From: an uncultured Eubacteriales bacterium | GTDB taxonomy: Bacteria > Bacillota > Clostridia > Lachnospirales > Lachnospiraceae | NCBI GenBank assembly: GCA_900316755.1 | Contig: ONED01000007.1 | Location: forward strand, 1-42,334 | Direction of reading: 5' to 3' | Length of the DNA stretch: 42,334 nt | Part shown: one piece after another, positions 1 through 42,334 of the stretch | Position numbering within the stretch: the first letter of the stretch is position 1 | Layout: the number at the start of each line of letters is the position of its first letter | The notes under the pieces: generated by a model | Told to the model about the DNA's origin: nothing | Seen by the model: only the letters and a program-made list of their open reading frames with translations | Databases searched by the model: none | Program-made: the position numbers and the translations under genes

Positions 1-155
1 GAGTTCCTTTTTGATAGATGTAATTGCTTCTCAAAAAACAGAGTGTTAGAAAATGCTGAAGATGAAGCCTAAAAGAAAAAGCCCTTGGTAGCGGCGTGTA
101 TGCCAACTGCCTCAGGCTCCGTGAGACCGCTATTACGACAGCCCCTTTTCTTTTT
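1..155 (+). ncRNA. candidate small RNA or repeat, copy 1 (partial at the window edge)
   Basis: Bases 1-115 align without gaps to the reverse complement of 42053-42167, with 5 differences (positions 6, 26, 55, 100, 105), all transitions. Inside the conserved block is a sigma-A-like promoter: TTGCTT at 24-29, a 17-base spacer and TAGAAA at 47-52, predicting a start near 59. The putative RNA is A-rich at 71-79 (AAAAGAAAA), which can pair with TTTTCTTTT at 146-154. Inside this are TAGCGG (89-94) with CCGCTA (127-132), and CTCA (111-114) with TGAG (122-125). The T-run ends at the stop codon of the convergent MFS gene, so the hairpin may also terminate that gene. Because both arms give a T-run on one strand, a repeated bidirectional terminator is an alternative. 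I do not recognise a known RNA family. Confidence 0.5.
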
Positions 156-1407
156 ACTTGTTTGCGACTTCCCGGTTTAACCGTGCCGCCTTGCAGAAAA
201 CAAAGTAACCAATCACAAACATCACGGCAATCACTGCAACTCCCAGATTCTGTATGCCGGTAAGCTGTGCTACCGCCGCAACTAACGTCGTCCCCACAAA
301 GGAAGCACTCTTTCCGAAAATATCATAAATTCCAAAGTATTCCCCCGATTTCTTTGCAGGAATAATCTTTGCAAAGTAAGACCGGGAAAGTGCCTGAATT
401 GCCCCTTGAAACATGCCGACACACACTGCCAAAAGCCAAAATTCCCATTGTTTGTCCAGTTGAATTGCAAATACCGCAATCCCGATATATGCAATAATAC
501 AGACTTTAATCAACAAATCTGTTTCGTATTTCTTCGACAGCTTTGCAAAAATCAATGCACAGGGAAACGCCACAATCTGAGTAACCAAAAGTGCCAATAA
601 TAATCCGGTAGAATCAAGCCCCAGAGAACTTCCATAGGCGGTCGCCATAGAAATAATTGTTGATACTCCGTCAATAAAGAAGAAGAACGCAATCAGATAC
701 ACAAAAATATGTTTCTGATGTCCCACATCCTTAAGTGTCGTAAAGAGGCGTGAAAAGCTTTCTACAATCGGTCTCTTCGGCATTTCCACATAATGCTTTT
801 GCTTGTATAATTTCAGAAACGGAATCGTGACCACAAACCACCAAACTGCATTTAAACAGAATGCAATGGCCATAGCAAGACCAAGAGAAATTCCGATTTT
901 ATCATACATCAGCACAAATACAAGAGAAATCACAAACGGAATACAGCTTCCTATGTAACCCCATGCATAGCCATGGGAGGAGACCATATCCATCCGATCC
1001 TCCGTCGTAACGTCTACCAACATTGCATCGTAAAAAATCAGGCTCGCATTGCATCCGACTTTTGCAACTACAAAGATGGCAAGAAACGCAATCCATGATT
1101 TTGGGAAAGACAGTGCCACACATCCAAACACGCCCACCATCATACTTATCGTAAAAATTGGTTTTTTAAAATTTTCCGTGTCTGCAATCGTCCCTAACAC
1201 CGGACCAATCAGCGCCACAATGACGGTCGCCACGGATGCGGCATACCCCCAATATGCGAGATAATTGACTTCTGAAATTCCTGCATTACCTGCCAGATAG
1301 TTAAAATAAATCGGAAAAATTGTAGAAACCAGCATAATAAACGCCGAATTCCCCACATCATATAAAATCCACGCTTTTTCAAGTTTGGTTAATTTTGTTT
1401 TTTTCAT
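154..1407 (-). CDS. MFS transporter, UMF1/Atg22-like
   Basis: A 417-residue hydrophobic protein with about twelve predicted membrane segments spread over its length, matching the UMF1 branch of the major facilitator superfamily (distantly related to yeast Atg22). The N-terminus has the family pattern KAWILYDVGNSAF, followed by the first membrane span. Substrate is unknown; some relatives are thought to export small molecules or amino acids. The start codon follows a GAGGTG ribosome binding site that sits directly after the stop codon of the upstream phospholipase-like gene, so the two are probably translated from one message. The stop codon touches the T-run of the repeat at 1-155. Confidence 0.85.
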   Translation of the reverse strand: MKKTKLTKLEKAWILYDVGNSAFIMLVSTIFPIYFNYLAGNAGISEVNYLAYWGYAASVATVIVALIGPVLGTIADTENFKKPIFTISMMVGVFGCVALSFPKSWIAFLAIFVVAKVGCNASLIFYDAMLVDVTTEDRMDMVSSHGYAWGYIGSCIPFVISLVFVLMYDKIGISLGLAMAIAFCLNAVWWFVVTIPFLKLYKQKHYVEMPKRPIVESFSRLFTTLKDVGHQKHIFVYLIAFFFFIDGVSTIISMATAYGSSLGLDSTGLLLALLVTQIVAFPCALIFAKLSKKYETDLLIKVCIIAYIGIAVFAIQLDKQWEFWLLAVCVGMFQGAIQALSRSYFAKIIPAKKSGEYFGIYDIFGKSASFVGTTLVAAVAQLTGIQNLGVAVIAVMFVIGYFVFCKAARLNREVANK

Positions 1408-3473: not shown

Positions 3474-4166
3474 TTATTCTACACGTGGGTCGATAATCTT
3501 GACAGCATCTGCTACACGACCATACTGACCTTTTGCTTTTTCCCATGCTGTGTTCGGATCATCACCTTTTTTGATGAAGTCTGTTAATTTTCCAAGGCTT
3601 ACAAACTGATAGCCGATGATTTCATTGTTTTCATCCAATGCGATACCGGTTACATAACCTTCTGCCATCTCCAGGTAACGTGGACCTTTTGCCAGAGTTC
3701 CGTACATCGTACCAACCTGTGAACGAAGTCCCTTTCCTAAGTCTTCCAGACCTGCACCGATTGCAAGACCGTCTTCAGAGAAAGCACTCTGTGTTCTACC
3801 ATATACAATCTGCAGGAATAATTCTCTCATTGCTGTGTTGATTGCATCGCATACCAAGTCTGTATTTAAAGCTTCCAAAATCGTCTTTCCCGGAAGAATT
3901 TCTGAAGCCATCGCTGCAGAGTGTGTCATTCCTGAACATCCGATTGTCTCAACCAATGCTTCCTGAATGATACCGTCTTTTACGTTTAATGTCAATTTAC
4001 ATGCTCCCTGCTGAGGTGCACACCAGCCGATACCGTGTGTAAAGCCGGAAATATCTTTTACTTCTTTTGCTTTTACCCATTTTGCTTCTTCTGGGATTGG
4101 AGCCGGTCCGTGATTTGCGCCACTGGCTACCGGACACATCGTTTTTACTTCATGTGAATAAATCAT
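3474..4166 (-). CDS. iron-sulfur cluster assembly scaffold-like protein (NifU N-terminal/IscU-like)
   Basis: A 230-residue protein with an IscU/NifU-N-like core. The segment IGCSGMTHSAAMASE (about 76-90), followed by GKTILEAL, mirrors the IscU second-cysteine region. Candidate cluster ligands are C56 (GAC), C77 (GCSG) and C106 (LVCDA); C11 and C49 are additional. It is longer than IscU (about 130 residues), with an extra C-terminal part of unknown role. No cysteine desulfurase is encoded next to it. The start at 4166 follows AAGGAG at eight bases; an upstream in-frame ATG lacks a good site. It forms an operon with the downstream GGGtGRT gene, and its clients are unknown. Confidence 0.85.
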   Translation of the reverse strand: MIYSHEVKTMCPVASGANHGPAPIPEEAKWVKAKEVKDISGFTHGIGWCAPQQGACKLTLNVKDGIIQEALVETIGCSGMTHSAAMASEILPGKTILEALNTDLVCDAINTAMRELFLQIVYGRTQSAFSEDGLAIGAGLEDLGKGLRSQVGTMYGTLAKGPRYLEMAEGYVTGIALDENNEIIGYQFVSLGKLTDFIKKGDDPNTAWEKAKGQYGRVADAVKIIDPRVE

Positions 4167-14713: not shown

Positions 14714-15088
14714 AAAAATGAAGCAAGACGATAAGCCGGGTTATGTCGTTGAACGGTCATCTATCTAGGCCTGTTGTTACCAGCAGGCTCAAGCAACCTA
14801 CCTAAAACGTGACGGGCCGCCACATCGTTTTCGTTCGGTTTTGCTTCGGATGGGGTTTACATGTGCCCCCTCTGTTACCAGAGGGGCGGTAGTCTCTTAC
14901 ACTGCCCTTCCACCCTTACCCGGACAAAATGCTTTCGCACTTTGTCCGGGCGGTACATTTCTGTTGCACTGGCCTTGGAGTCGCCTCCACCGGACGTTAT
15001 CCGGCATCCTGCCCTGTGAAGCCCGGACTTTCCTCTCCTGCGGTCTTTCGACACTTGCAGCAGCGACCGTTTGTCTTACTTCATTTCC
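14714..15088 (-). ncRNA. rnpB: RNase P RNA (bacterial type A)
   Basis: The catalytic RNA of ribonuclease P, which matures tRNA 5' ends. On the minus strand the universal block GAGGAAAGTCCGGGCTTC lies at 15018-15035, an AGATAGATGACCG segment matches the conserved 3' region, and ACATAACCCGGCTTAT is at 14731-14746. The terminal P1 helix pairs TGAAGTAAGAC (about 15073-15083) with GTCTTGCTTCA near 14719-14729, followed by TTTTTATT, which also serves as terminator. A perfect-spacing promoter lies directly upstream. Boundaries are within a few bases. Short ORFs on the opposite strand here are spurious. Confidence 0.95.
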
Positions 15089-22466: not shown

Positions 22467-22504
22467 AAGGAAGCAGCATAAATATCTCATTTTTGGAGGC
22501 TCTT

Positions 22505-23680
22505 ATGGCAAATATAACACTATTAGAAAAAACACTTCCAATTGCCCCGCTAAAGATTGCGGCATTGGACAGTTGCAAAGAACTTGGACAAAAAGTGAAT
22601 GATTACATTGTCTCTTTCAGACAGGATGCGACAAAAGATTTTCCAAATCTGGCATCCATTGCAAATTATAAGAATCCCAACTATCTGGCAGACTGTGCAT
22701 GTCCCAGATTCGGCTCCGGAGAAGCCAAAGGCATGCTTCGTGAATCCATTCGCGGCACTGACCTTTTTGTAATGGTGGATGTGTGCAATTACAGCATGAC
22801 CTATTCGGTAAATGGCTACGAAAACCACATGTCACCGGACGACCACTATCAGGATCTGAAGCGTATCATTTCCGCTGCCACCGGCAAAGCAAAACGAATT
22901 AACGTGATTATGCCCTTCCTATATGAAAGCCGTCAGCACAAGCGCACCAAGCGGGAATCTCTCGACTGCGCACTTGCTTTAGAAGAACTGCTGGCGATGG
23001 GCGTTTCAAATATTCTTACCTTTGACGCACATGACCCGCGCGTACAGAATGCGATTCCGCTGAACGGGTTCGATAACTTTTCTCCAAACTACCAGTTCAT
23101 GAAAGCTCTGCTGCGTGCAGAACCGGATTTAGATGTGGACAAAGATCATTTGATGATTATCAGTCCGGATGAAGGCGCTATGCACCGCGCAGTATATCTT
23201 TCCAACGTGCTCGGAGTAGATATGGGTATGTTCTACAAACGCCGTGACTACTCTGTCGTCGTCAACGGGAAGAACCCTATCGTAGCTCACGAATTTCTTG
23301 GAGTGGATTTGAAAGGGAAAAATGCAATTATCGTGGACGATATGATTTCTTCCGGAGAAAGTATGCTGGATGTTGCAAAACAGATTAAAGAACGGGGTGC
23401 AAACCGTGTATTTGTATTCACGACATTCGGATTGTTCACAGAAGGCTTGGCAAAATTCGACGAGTATTACGAAAAAGGATTTATCGACCGCATTATTACG
23501 ACGAACCTGACGTATCTCCCACCGGAGTTAAAGGAAAAACCGTATTTTACTTGTGCGGATATGAGTAAATTCCTCGCGCTGATTATTGATTCACTGAATC
23601 ATGATACCCCGATTGGAACCGTAATGGATCCGTCGGAAAAGATTCATGCACTGATGGCAAAACACAACTCCCGAAAATAA
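22505..23680 (+). CDS. prs: ribose-phosphate diphosphokinase, long variant
   Basis: A 391-residue PRPP synthetase, clearly longer than the usual 310-320 residues and divergent in motifs. The catalytic flexible-loop KRR is present at 245-247, the PRPP-binding loop is VDDMISSGES (277-286) in place of the common VDDxxDTAGT, the position of the usual DLHxxQ motif reads DAHDPRVQ, and PYARQDRK is replaced by LYESRQHKR (139-147). About 60 extra N-terminal residues include C-A-C (64-66). The start at 22505 has GGAGG upstream. It probably makes PRPP for nucleotide, histidine and NAD synthesis, though it may be a specialised paralogue. Confidence 0.85.
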   Translation: MANITLLEKTLPIAPLKIAALDSCKELGQKVNDYIVSFRQDATKDFPNLASIANYKNPNYLADCACPRFGSGEAKGMLRESIRGTDLFVMVDVCNYSMTYSVNGYENHMSPDDHYQDLKRIISAATGKAKRINVIMPFLYESRQHKRTKRESLDCALALEELLAMGVSNILTFDAHDPRVQNAIPLNGFDNFSPNYQFMKALLRAEPDLDVDKDHLMIISPDEGAMHRAVYLSNVLGVDMGMFYKRRDYSVVVNGKNPIVAHEFLGVDLKGKNAIIVDDMISSGESMLDVAKQIKERGANRVFVFTTFGLFTEGLAKFDEYYEKGFIDRIITTNLTYLPPELKEKPYFTCADMSKFLALIIDSLNHDTPIGTVMDPSEKIHALMAKHNSRK

Positions 23681-23684
23681 AAGT

Positions 23685-23757
23685 ACAGGGCTATCACAAT
23701 AGGTAAATCAGGCTCAGTGAGAACGATTTTCCTGTTGTGACGCCCCATTTTTATTTT
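23685..23757. terminator. bidirectional terminator between prs and the deacetylase gene
   Basis: GGGC and TCACAATAGG (23688-23704) pair with CCTGTTGTGA and GCCC (23731-23745), giving about 14 base pairs around a 26-base loop, followed on the plus strand by CATTTTTATTTT. The reverse strand also ends in a T-rich run, so it serves both convergent genes. The loop sequence CAGGCTCAGTGAGAACG nearly repeats a segment of the candidate RNA at 113-129. Confidence 0.85.
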
Positions 23758-24572
23758 CGGAAATGAAAATATTTCTGACCGTTTTCAAATATAACTCCCC
23801 GCAGCTTTGCCATCTCACTGACGGTTACCAACTGATACCCTCTCTCCTGCAGCGCCGGAATCAGGGTCATCATGGCTTCTATCGTAAAATCATGGATATC
23901 GTGAAACAGGACAATATCTCCGTCTTGTACGGTTTCCAGCACATAATTTACGATGGAGACGGCATCTTTTCTCTGCCAGTCGGTGGTATCTACCGACCAC
24001 ATGAGATATGGATATGCTACATTGGCTCTCACTTCATCATTGATTGCGCCATAGGACGGACGCACCAGACTTGCGCCGTGTCCAAGCACCTCCGTGAGCA
24101 CCTGATTCGTTTGCTCCACCTCTGCCTGTATCTCTTCAGGCGTCAGAGTCGTGAGTTTCTTATGGTCATATGTATGATTGCCGATTTCACACCCCAGCTC
24201 TTCCATCCGTTTGACTGTCTCCGGATATTTCCTTACATTCTGCCCCAATACCAAAAACGTGGCACGCGCGTTACATTCCTGTAATTTATTTAACAAAGTA
24301 TCGGTATATTTTCCCGGTCCGTCATCAAACGTCAGGGCAAGCATCGGCTTCTCCGGGTCGATTTCCGGCCGCTTGAGCTCGGAATCCTCCTGTGGCGATT
24401 CTACATCTTCTTCCTTTTGCGAAGATTCGTCTCCCTTTGTCATAAAGACAGACGTACTCCTATCCGGCCATGCTCCCATAATACATACAAAAAGCAGGAC
24501 TGCCACCACAAGCAGTCCCACCACTTTTATTTTTCCGGTTTCCGCTCCGTGATTCCACCATCGATGATTCAT
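23751..24572 (-). CDS. membrane-anchored polysaccharide deacetylase
   Basis: A 273-residue NodB-homology enzyme. An uncleaved-type membrane segment (about residues 15-33, VVGLLVVAVLLFV) anchors it, followed by an acidic linker (34-75). The catalytic motifs are intact: TFDDGPG (81-87), H133 and H137 in GNHTYDH, RPSYG (171-175), DTTDW (195-199) and LFHDIH (222-227). It should remove acetyl groups from N-acetylglucosamine or N-acetylmuramic acid polymers outside the membrane; whether the target is peptidoglycan, spore cortex or another glycan cannot be told. The start at 24572 is set by GGGGAG six bases upstream. Confidence 0.9.
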   Translation of the reverse strand: MNHRWWNHGAETGKIKVVGLLVVAVLLFVCIMGAWPDRSTSVFMTKGDESSQKEEDVESPQEDSELKRPEIDPEKPMLALTFDDGPGKYTDTLLNKLQECNARATFLVLGQNVRKYPETVKRMEELGCEIGNHTYDHKKLTTLTPEEIQAEVEQTNQVLTEVLGHGASLVRPSYGAINDEVRANVAYPYLMWSVDTTDWQRKDAVSIVNYVLETVQDGDIVLFHDIHDFTIEAMMTLIPALQERGYQLVTVSEMAKLRGVIFENGQKYFHFRK

Positions 24573-24614
24573 TTGTGTCTCCCCTATCCTAATCCCCATT
24601 TATCGTGTGAGACT

Positions 24615-37898: not shown

Positions 37899-39023
37899 TT
37901 AATCCAAATAATCCTTCAGCTTGCGGCTTCTGCTCGGATGACGCAGCTTTCTGAGTGCCTTTGCCTCAATCTGACGAATTCTCTCACGGGTTACATCAAA
38001 CTCTTTGCCCACTTCTTCCAGTGTTCTGGCCCGTCCGTCATTCATACCAAAACGGAGGCGAAGTACCTTCTGCTCCCTTTCTGTAAGCGTTCCCAAAACT
38101 TCATTGAGCTGCTCCTTTAACAAGGTCTGTGCTGCAGCTTCTGCCGGCACAGGCACATTGTCATCCTGAATGAAATCTCCAAGATGACTGTCCTCCTCCT
38201 CACCAATCGGAGTCTCAAGCGAAACCGGCTCCTGAGAAATCTTCAAAATTTCACGCACACGTTCTACCGGCATTTGAAGTTCTTCCGCAATCTCTTCCGG
38301 AGTGGGTTCCCTCCCCAGTTCCTGCAAAAGCTGTCTTGATACCCGAATCAGTTTGTTGATGGTCTCCACCATATGCACCGGAATCCGGATGGTTCTCGCC
38401 TGATCCGCAATTGCTCTCGTAATTGCCTGACGAATCCACCAGGTAGCATAAGTACTAAACTTAAATCCTTTTTGATAATCAAACTTTTCCACGGCTTTGA
38501 TTAACCCAAGATTTCCCTCTTGTATCAAATCCAAAAACAGCATTCCACGTCCCACATACCGTTTGGCAATGCTGACAACAAGACGCAGATTGGCTTCTGC
38601 CAGTCTCTTTTTTGCCTCCTCATCACCATCCGACATCCGTTTTGCCAGTTCAATTTCCTCTTCGGCACTCAAAAGCGGAACTTTTCCGATTTCCTTTAAG
38701 TACATACGGACCGGATCCTCAATGCTGACTCCCTCCGGCACAGACAAATCTATTTTCTCTACGTCCACTTCCTCTTCGTCTGCCAGAAGCATTTCTATGT
38801 CTGCATCATCTGTCACATCGTCTATGTCTCCGCCTGTAATCCGAAGTACATCAATATTCTGCGTCTCCAGATATTCATAAATTTTTTCCATTTGTTCTTC
38901 TTCCAGCGGCATATCTGAGAAAACATCATTGATTTCCTGGATTTCAAGTATATTTTTCTTCTTTTTTCCCAAAGCAACCAGCGTTTTCAATTTTTCCTCA
39001 AATTTTGTAGCTTGTTCTTCCAT
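37899..39023 (-). CDS. rpoD: primary RNA polymerase sigma factor
   Basis: A 374-residue sigma-70 family protein, the housekeeping factor (SigA type). A short region 1.1-like N-terminus is followed by region 1.2 ([11 protein letters not shown]), regions 2.1-2.4 ([15 protein letters not shown]-like [13 protein letters not shown] and [10 protein letters not shown]), region 3 and region 4.2 ([19 protein letters not shown]). It should read the TTGACA/TATAAT-type promoters seen throughout the window. It follows dnaG by 39 bases. Confidence 0.96.
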
Positions 39024-40903: not shown

Positions 40904-41911
40904 TTAAATATTCCAGGATTCCGGAATAAAAATTTCCTGAAACTTCTTAACCGCATAATTATCTGTCATCCCTGCTATATAATCACAGATAATCTGCTCT
41001 TTTGTATCCCCGTAAAGCATAGAAAGCCGCATAAATTCCTCCGGTATCAGTTCTTCGTGCTCCAGATAGTAGGTATATAGTTTTTTTAGCATTTCTACCG
41101 CCTTATCTTCTTCATGCTTTGCAACCGGGTTTCGGTACACATTTTCAAACATGAATTTCCGAATCCCCCTCATCGCCTCCGCCACTTCTTCAGACATTTG
41201 AATTTTCGGCTGATCCATGCTATGGATGATGACATCATGCGTGATGGTGTTTAATCGCTCTTTTGTAGAATTTCCCAACACCTTTCTGTATTTTGGCGGT
41301 AAATCCAGCTCCGAGAGAAGTCCTCCCCGGATTGCATCATCGATATCATGATTGACATACGCAATTTTGTCCGACAGTCGAACTACCTGTCCCTCCAACG
41401 TCATCGGTTCTCCGGCAGTCTGATGAGTCAGAATTCCGTCTACGACTTCTCTGGTCAGATTGAGCCCCTGTCCGTCTTTTTCAATATACTCTACCACCCG
41501 CACACTCTGCTCATTGTGCTTGAATCCCAACGGACAAACCTCATTTAAAGCACGTTCCCCGGCATGCCCGAATGGCGTATGCCCCAAATCGTGTCCTAGA
41601 CTAATTGCTTCTGTCAAATCCTCATTCAGCCGCAGTGCTTTTGCGATTGTCCTTGCATTCTGAGAAACCTCCAGCGTATGGGTCATACGGGTTCGATAAT
41701 GATCCCCTTTCGGAAGTAAAAACACCTGTGTTTTCTGCTTCAGGCGGCGAAAGGACTTACTGTGCAGGATGCGATCCCGGTCCCGCTGAAACACCGGTCT
41801 TAAATCGCACTCTTCCTCTTTTCGCTTCCTTCCCAGGGAATCCCTGCTGTGGGTCGCATAAGGACTTAAATACTCCATTTCGCGCAGTTCTAACTGTTCC
41901 CGAATCGTCAT
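40904..41911 (-). CDS. dgt: deoxyguanosinetriphosphate triphosphohydrolase-like protein
   Basis: A 335-residue HD-domain enzyme expected to hydrolyse dNTPs to deoxynucleosides and triphosphate. The metal ligands are in FRRLKQKTQV, H78 (THTLE) and H107 D108 (GHDLGHTPFGHAGE). The start at 41911 (MTIREQLELREMEYL) is set by AGGAGG seven bases upstream; the longer frame to 41941 runs into the leader. It is first in the dgt-dnaG-rpoD operon, with the promoter just upstream. Confidence 0.92.
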   Translation of the reverse strand: MTIREQLELREMEYLSPYATHSRDSLGRKRKEEECDLRPVFQRDRDRILHSKSFRRLKQKTQVFLLPKGDHYRTRMTHTLEVSQNARTIAKALRLNEDLTEAISLGHDLGHTPFGHAGERALNEVCPLGFKHNEQSVRVVEYIEKDGQGLNLTREVVDGILTHQTAGEPMTLEGQVVRLSDKIAYVNHDIDDAIRGGLLSELDLPPKYRKVLGNSTKERLNTITHDVIIHSMDQPKIQMSEEVAEAMRGIRKFMFENVYRNPVAKHEEDKAVEMLKKLYTYYLEHEELIPEEFMRLSMLYGDTKEQIICDYIAGMTDNYAVKKFQEIFIPESWNI

Positions 41912-41967
41912 TGTTCTTCCTCCTGTCCAATCTGTATCCATTTCCGTACTCCGGTATCATTTATCGT

Positions 41968-42004: not shown

Positions 42005-42167
42005 ACCAAAAGAAAGGCGGCTTTCGCAATAGCGAAATCGGTTTCATCGGGGCTGAGGCAGTCGGCACACACGCCGCTACCAAGGGCTTTTTCTTTTAGG
42101 CTTCATCTTCAGTATTTTCTAACACTCTGTTTTTTGAGAAGTAATTACATCTATCAAAAAGAAACTC
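42005..42167 (-). ncRNA. candidate small RNA or repeat, copy 2
   Basis: The conserved block 42053-42167 matches copy 1 (bases 1-115) in inverted orientation, 110 of 115 identical. The promoter is conserved as TTACTT (42139-42144), 17 bases, TAGAAA (42116-42121), giving a start near 42109. The 3' half differs from copy 1: it has TTTCGC-TATT-GCGAAA and pairs AGCGGC with GCCGCC. The outer AAAAGAAA and TTTCTTTT arms (the T-run ending near 42006) are kept. It lies just upstream of the dgt promoter, reading the same way. Family unknown. Confidence 0.5.
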
Positions 42168-42202
42168 ACAACACACAGATTTTCAGATAAACCGTATGGG
42201 AG

Positions 42203-42330
42203 AATGCATCGAAGGATTGTCTAGAAAGTCTTACGGATGCATTTTAGAAAATATACAAGCACGAAAAAATGTTTGAGCTTTGCGAGTTCTTTTGAGTGCT
42301 TGTATAATAAAATTTCTAAAATGCATCCGT
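42203..42330 (+). repeat. long palindrome with an embedded promoter at the window end
   Basis: An 18-base perfect inverted repeat, ACGGATGC... (42233-42250) and its complement (42313-42330), flanks a second 10-base repeat, ATACAAGCAC (42253-42262) and GTGCTTGTAT (42296-42305). An extra AATGCATC at 42203-42210 can pair with GATGCATT at 42236-42243 instead. TATAAT (42303-42308), with TTGCGA (42280-42285) at 17 bases, points rightward out of the window. CTAG occurs on both sides (42221 and 42331). It may be a mobile-element end, an operator or a regulated promoter. The rest of 41912-42334 shows only the two items listed separately. Confidence 0.6.
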
Positions 42331-42334
42331 CTAG

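Follow-up and report, generated by a model that had tools for sequence, protein, structure and literature searches.

What is the sequence that caps both ends of this piece of DNA? The window, that is, the whole stretch of 42,334 nucleotides that was analysed, is the entire contig C66 of a draft genome (90 contigs, 2.14 Mb). Aligned without gaps to the reverse complement of 42053-42167, its bases 1-115 were identical at 110 of 115 positions, and the five mismatches (positions 6, 26, 55, 100 and 105) were transitions only; our recount confirmed this match as it had been described in an earlier sequence-only reading. The similarity was far beyond chance and was not confined to two copies, a case that the reading had held against a multi-copy family: BLAST of a 155-base query against the genome it comes from gave 34 places (best match other than itself, E = 4.9e-59), and a 65-nt query of end plus core found 42. 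An 18-mer from the end occurred in 35 places compared with 1 for a backward-read control, the places at C40:8710, C25:62011, C14:6736 and C27:9683 (≤3 mismatches) being excluded as elements. Beyond base 115 the repeat still aligned, more variably, to about 149. The suggestion that it reaches outside the window proved right: each window end is the arm of an element cut by the contig break, and the repeat caps both ends because contig C66 breaks inside two separate elements.

The repeat belongs to a family of MITE-like interspersed elements that are non-coding and palindromic (foldback); each window copy is one arm of such an element. In the long form (L), about 529 bp by a coordinate estimate from elements C1 and C84, a palindromic centre separates arm A, which is the repeat of the window ends, from an oppositely directed arm B; the two arms have their outer 80 bp or so in common and differ consistently inside. 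By our own count, 16 contig ends fall in L elements, both window ends included. The terminal inverted repeats of a MITE were present, imperfect and about 37 bp or more in length, as was its non-coding character, since the element part of L016 held only short frames, the longest listed (82 aa) running into the flank. Shorter, nested forms accompanied the long one: an S form of about 100 bp with the same ends as L (C89b, C87, C70, C74 and C64), an XS form of 45-61 bp (found twice on C27, once on C25 and once at window 23687-23746), and terminator-sized hairpins of about 25 bp with the common end sequence (C73, C54, C6 and C14). One internal junction was common to C89b, C87, C70 and C74, so the shortened unit seems to have spread. 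The complete C51 element folded at -271 kcal/mol (z -26.7) and the short forms at z -5.0 to -17.2, and single arms from the window were barely more stable than their shuffled versions (z -2.3 and -1.0). On C6 (L039 about 3980-4030) and C14 (L040 about 684-712), the same terminator-sized hairpin was found with a shared flank, perhaps a duplicated gene end.

Three elements of the family lie in the window. The first is the outward-reading arm A of an L element at 1..149 (+), with its other half on another contig; 5 bp separate the element from the stop codon of an MFS/ATG22-like gene at 154-1407 (-). Within it, an inward hairpin with a T-run (GGAGCCTGAGGCAGTTGGCATACACGCCGCTACCAAGGGCTTTTTCTTT) at 72..128 (-), at -19.0 kcal/mol, is the proposed terminator of that gene. 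The T-run with which the repeat had been said to close at its 3' end exists as well, but it is placed in the flank just outside the element. The second is the XS element at 23687..23746 (no strand assigned), between the convergent genes 22493-23680 (+) and 23751-24599 (-); it folded at -42.9 kcal/mol on the plus strand and -42.2 on the minus strand (z -8.4 and -8.5). The palindrome around it (23672-23766) extends into the last codons of both genes, so that CCGAAAATAA, read inward, forms the end of each. The third is arm A and part of the centre of another L element at 42008..42334 (-), inside which the contig ends; it lies upstream of an HD-domain gene (40904-41941, -), and its inward hairpin with T-run at 42040..42096 (+) was the weakest of the 22 examined (-15.5 kcal/mol). 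Elsewhere in the window, a bacterial class A RNase P RNA (14716-15082, -) was the sole Rfam match.

The position of the elements relative to genes was scored at the 37 sites listed, contig-cut elements being scored on one side only. A gene ended toward the element within 60 bp on 43 of 56 assessable sides, compared with 11.4% at random (2000 intergenic points, both sides taken), and gene ends were found on both sides of 9 of 19 two-sided elements compared with 0.9% of random points. No protein gene ended toward the element at three of the 37 sites (C66R, C62 and C90); C66R and C62 sit 5' of genes, and at C90 a tRNA-Glu ends 24 bases before the element. With a crude gene caller (a codon-usage score trained on 21 window genes), the 20 element gaps with both neighbours called comprised 13 convergent, 7 tandem and 0 divergent gaps, compared with 8, 74 and 20 among 102 element-free gaps (convergence, Fisher p 9e-8), three of the eight convergent element-free gaps having been fetched for their resemblance to element ends. 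The stops of both convergent genes were often within 5-30 bp of the element, which leaves no room beside it for a native terminator. These results show that the elements stand where intrinsic terminators would, at the 3' ends of genes, and that convergent gene pairs are their commonest setting.

The arms have the matching anatomy. All 22 L arms examined (C89a and the cut arm B of C1 are omitted from the count) carried an inward, bulged hairpin with folding energies between -15.5 and -27.3 kcal/mol and, directly behind it, a T-rich tail, which was GGGCTTTTTCTTTT in 19 of them. Of the two traits that mark an intrinsic terminator, hairpin with T-run and location at a gene 3' end, the former was thus found in 22 of 22 L arms and the latter on 43 of 56 sides. 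A consensus terminator scan of window 1-160 called none, the hairpin at 72..128 included. Covarying pairs, which the sequence-only reading had proposed to seek, were not above shuffles in the arm hairpin (146 of 500 reached the observed value); it was 93.7% paired, with one pair showing a double change, in one cell. The S and XS forms lack the inward T-rich tail. Because each L arm has a hairpin and a T-run, two convergent genes flanking an L element would each be supplied with a terminator. A transcript arriving from either side would stop at the inward hairpin and T-run of that arm; in the short forms, the entire element would fold into a single long hairpin flanked by A- and T-tracts and could terminate both ways, with S and XS termination occurring at the flanking T-tract. 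Judged from position and anatomy, which also back the earlier suggestion of a repeated bidirectional terminator, the elements probably work as double (two-way) transcription terminators rather than small RNAs.

We therefore favour, with a probability of roughly two in three (0.68), a terminator-sited, foldback MITE-like, EFAR-like family acting as a double terminator. Such a family would have spread by inserting into terminators already present or by replacing them, and we infer that it may enter the terminator hairpin itself; template switching between the folded arms could then keep both ends of an element matched.

The distribution of the family was examined in several collections. A 29-mer end motif (≤3 mismatches) was absent from all 396 other family genomes searched. 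Among 40 relatives, one gave a match (34 bp, in the same-order genome G036, E 1.2e-5), and a search of 19 GTDB relatives gave nothing better than E 0.03. Plasmids and phages held no match to the one S element searched. In collections that may exclude the genome's own sequence, viral contigs gave no match to a corrected end pattern (which matches 10 of 230 fetched loci), and an exact 31-mer was absent from genome contigs. In the searches made so far, the family is restricted to this Lachnospiraceae-type genome; no paper on it was found in the literature searched, most subscription journals being outside its reach.

What stands at the same sites in a relative was visible in one case. For the protein encoded at 22493-23680, the closest locus among the matches listed was L080 at 87% identity, the others listed having 79% or less; it belongs to an uncultured Clostridia MAG (genome G421), from which the element is absent. 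Six element sites have orthologous flanks in G421 (601 kb examined), and at five of them, the site of the window XS element included, an ordinary hairpin terminator replaces the element, as judged by eye in what is another species; the sequences of these five terminators are unrelated to the element. At the sixth, orthologous to C62, no terminator was found, and the neighbouring gene starts there rather than ends. In seven same-genus genomes the C51 gene has orthologues that share 66-71% identity with it (its 3' end being visible in three of the seven), and these genomes are thus too diverged for an empty-site comparison. Beside the C42 and C69 elements (L017 1910-3292; L191 16194-18985), gene order differs from that in G421, which may reflect an inversion that has an element at one of its breakpoints.

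The ends of the elements were variable and yet matched. Enzyme-recognised transposon ends are expected to be better conserved than what lies between them. Here, divergence from the consensus rose from the interior to the outer end, being 2.7, 1.4, 4.5, 11.4 and 20.6% in arm A and 5.3, 3.0, 4.6, 7.9 and 14.1% in arm B, so the ends are the least conserved part. When the two ends of the same element were compared in 7 of the 14 two-ended elements (those omitted were the XS and smaller forms and C85), the true pairing scored 205 (mean 162) and ranked first among 5040 permutations, and the own partner end was the best match in five of the seven (not in C83 and C64). Half-elements sharing private changes were also found across contigs (C61/C58, C47/C84, C69/C42, C66R/C90, C1/C59 and C77/C44), and none of C66L, C62, C22, C33 and C83a had such a partner. 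Complementarity extended slightly past the ends (7.29 vs 6.53 of 14 positions; 1.9% of shuffles as high). Template switching homogenises the arms of inverted repeats, according to PMC8794818 and PMC8604942; selection on the hairpin would give a similar pattern of matched ends.

The means of spread was sought in the flanks and among the transposases of the draft genome. No target-site duplication was found in the 14 two-ended elements (longest direct repeat, mean 1.14 vs 0.76 shuffled; 12.8% of shuffles as high). The transposase families searched gave two hits for PF13751, six for PF01609 and none at E ≤ 0.001 for PF01797 (Y1, RAYT-type). None of six PF13751/PF01609 loci scanned carried the element ends, the hits on C85 and C46 lying outside the scan, and one transposase had an inverted end unrelated to the element; the idea that the match belongs to a known insertion sequence found no support here. 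The L centre occurred only on contigs already among the element sites, so no larger copy was seen. With neither a target duplication nor a transposase tied to the ends, the case for mobility is indirect, and we use the term MITE-like rather than MITE. The genome contains two RVT_1 genes, with a group II intron RNA at one of them; a link to the elements is speculation. These encode two group II-type reverse transcriptases that are almost identical, about 439 aa long and close to contig ends, at L229 (G000:C22 around 851-1471) and L230 (G000:C58 around 38030-38650); Rfam matched group II intron RNA twice in L229 and not at all in L230.

These data bear on three other accounts of how the elements came to their sites. 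In the first, an ordinary MITE inserted with no preference for particular sites, its copies were purged from genes and promoters but survived at 3' ends, and termination is incidental. Inverted ends, many copies and the lack of a long reading frame are what such an element would show, and the 7 tandem gaps among 20 and the two sites 5' of genes (C66R and C62) fit it too; however, convergent stops so close to the element on both sides, the absence of target duplication and ends less conserved than enzymes would generally require make it unlikely. In the second, a terminator that was never a transposon was multiplied by ectopic gene conversion or template switching and then gained or lost palindromic layers. 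The graded sizes, the end sequence shared by the terminator-sized hairpins and the variable but matched ends speak for this account, but the flanks outside the elements are unrelated, which leaves little homology for starting conversion, and the junction common to four S elements looks like the spread of a finished unit; we consider it doubtful. The third, which we offer only tentatively and regard as improbable, is a structure-targeting mobile element without sequence-specific ends that enters terminator hairpins without target duplication and brings two terminators, one folded-back end templating the other. The ends of each new copy would then be rewritten to match while the interior stayed constant, and the host would pay little, since the element brings its own two terminators.

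A multi-copy small RNA, one of the interpretations that the sequence-only reading had put forward, was not supported. The promoter-like pair that it placed at 24-52 reads TTGCTT-17-TAGAAA (TTACTT in copy 2), and a consensus scan of 1-160 found no promoter; the hairpin and T-run lie on the opposite strand and point inward. Rfam gave the window repeat no match at the gathering score. At E up to 0.5, the L013 and L016 elements had no match and the L030 element had one at chance level (21.8 bits vs a gathering score of 290.8); over the three loci there were two weak matches, one outside the element and the other far below its gathering score. A small RNA running from the L centre out through arm B could start at TTGCGA-17-TATAAT (L016 3039-3067; 10 of 12 consensus bases; promoter-like sites in the L-centre region, 3 vs an average of 0.8 in shuffles), but with no promoter consensus in the reported arm, no Rfam family, short forms that lack the centre and a placement that follows gene 3' ends, it is very unlikely. 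The earlier interpretation as a whole is thus partly supported.

If the double-terminator reading is true, dozens of sites where transcription stops have been taken over by a mobile repeat in a single genome, and because it carries the function of the sites it occupies, its spread with little harm would be explained. The interior is constant and the ends are variable but matched; together with the lack of target duplication and of a visible transposase, this points to an unusual mode of copying or upkeep, which may bear on other palindromic elements of Firmicutes.

Several known systems resemble the family in part. Group IIC introns insert at terminator hairpins, and this genome has RVT_1 genes and a group II intron RNA; however, a reverse transcriptase gene is absent from the elements, and a search of three element loci at E up to 0.5 gave no intron RNA. 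REP/BIME repeats with RAYT are likewise palindromic and lie between genes, often at 3' ends, but the present elements are much longer, no Y1 transposase matched in this genome, and the GTAG end tag described in a passage of PMC3733652 is missing from the consensus ends. A passage of PMC10969869 attributes terminator-like sequence to SPRITE of Streptococcus pneumoniae. SPRITE, BOX and RUP of that species are also small interspersed elements, but differ in anatomy, a distinction drawn from descriptions only. EFAR elements of Enterococcus faecalis are miniature palindromes that lie between genes, code for nothing, differ widely in length and are reported to occupy stem-loop targets. The present family, in a different host, agrees with that description in palindromic form, lack of coding, intergenic location and variable length, and may share the stem-loop siting, a likeness drawn from descriptions. 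In that sense the family would be EFAR-like in plan. EFAR is counted among bacterial MITEs in a passage of PMC3733652.
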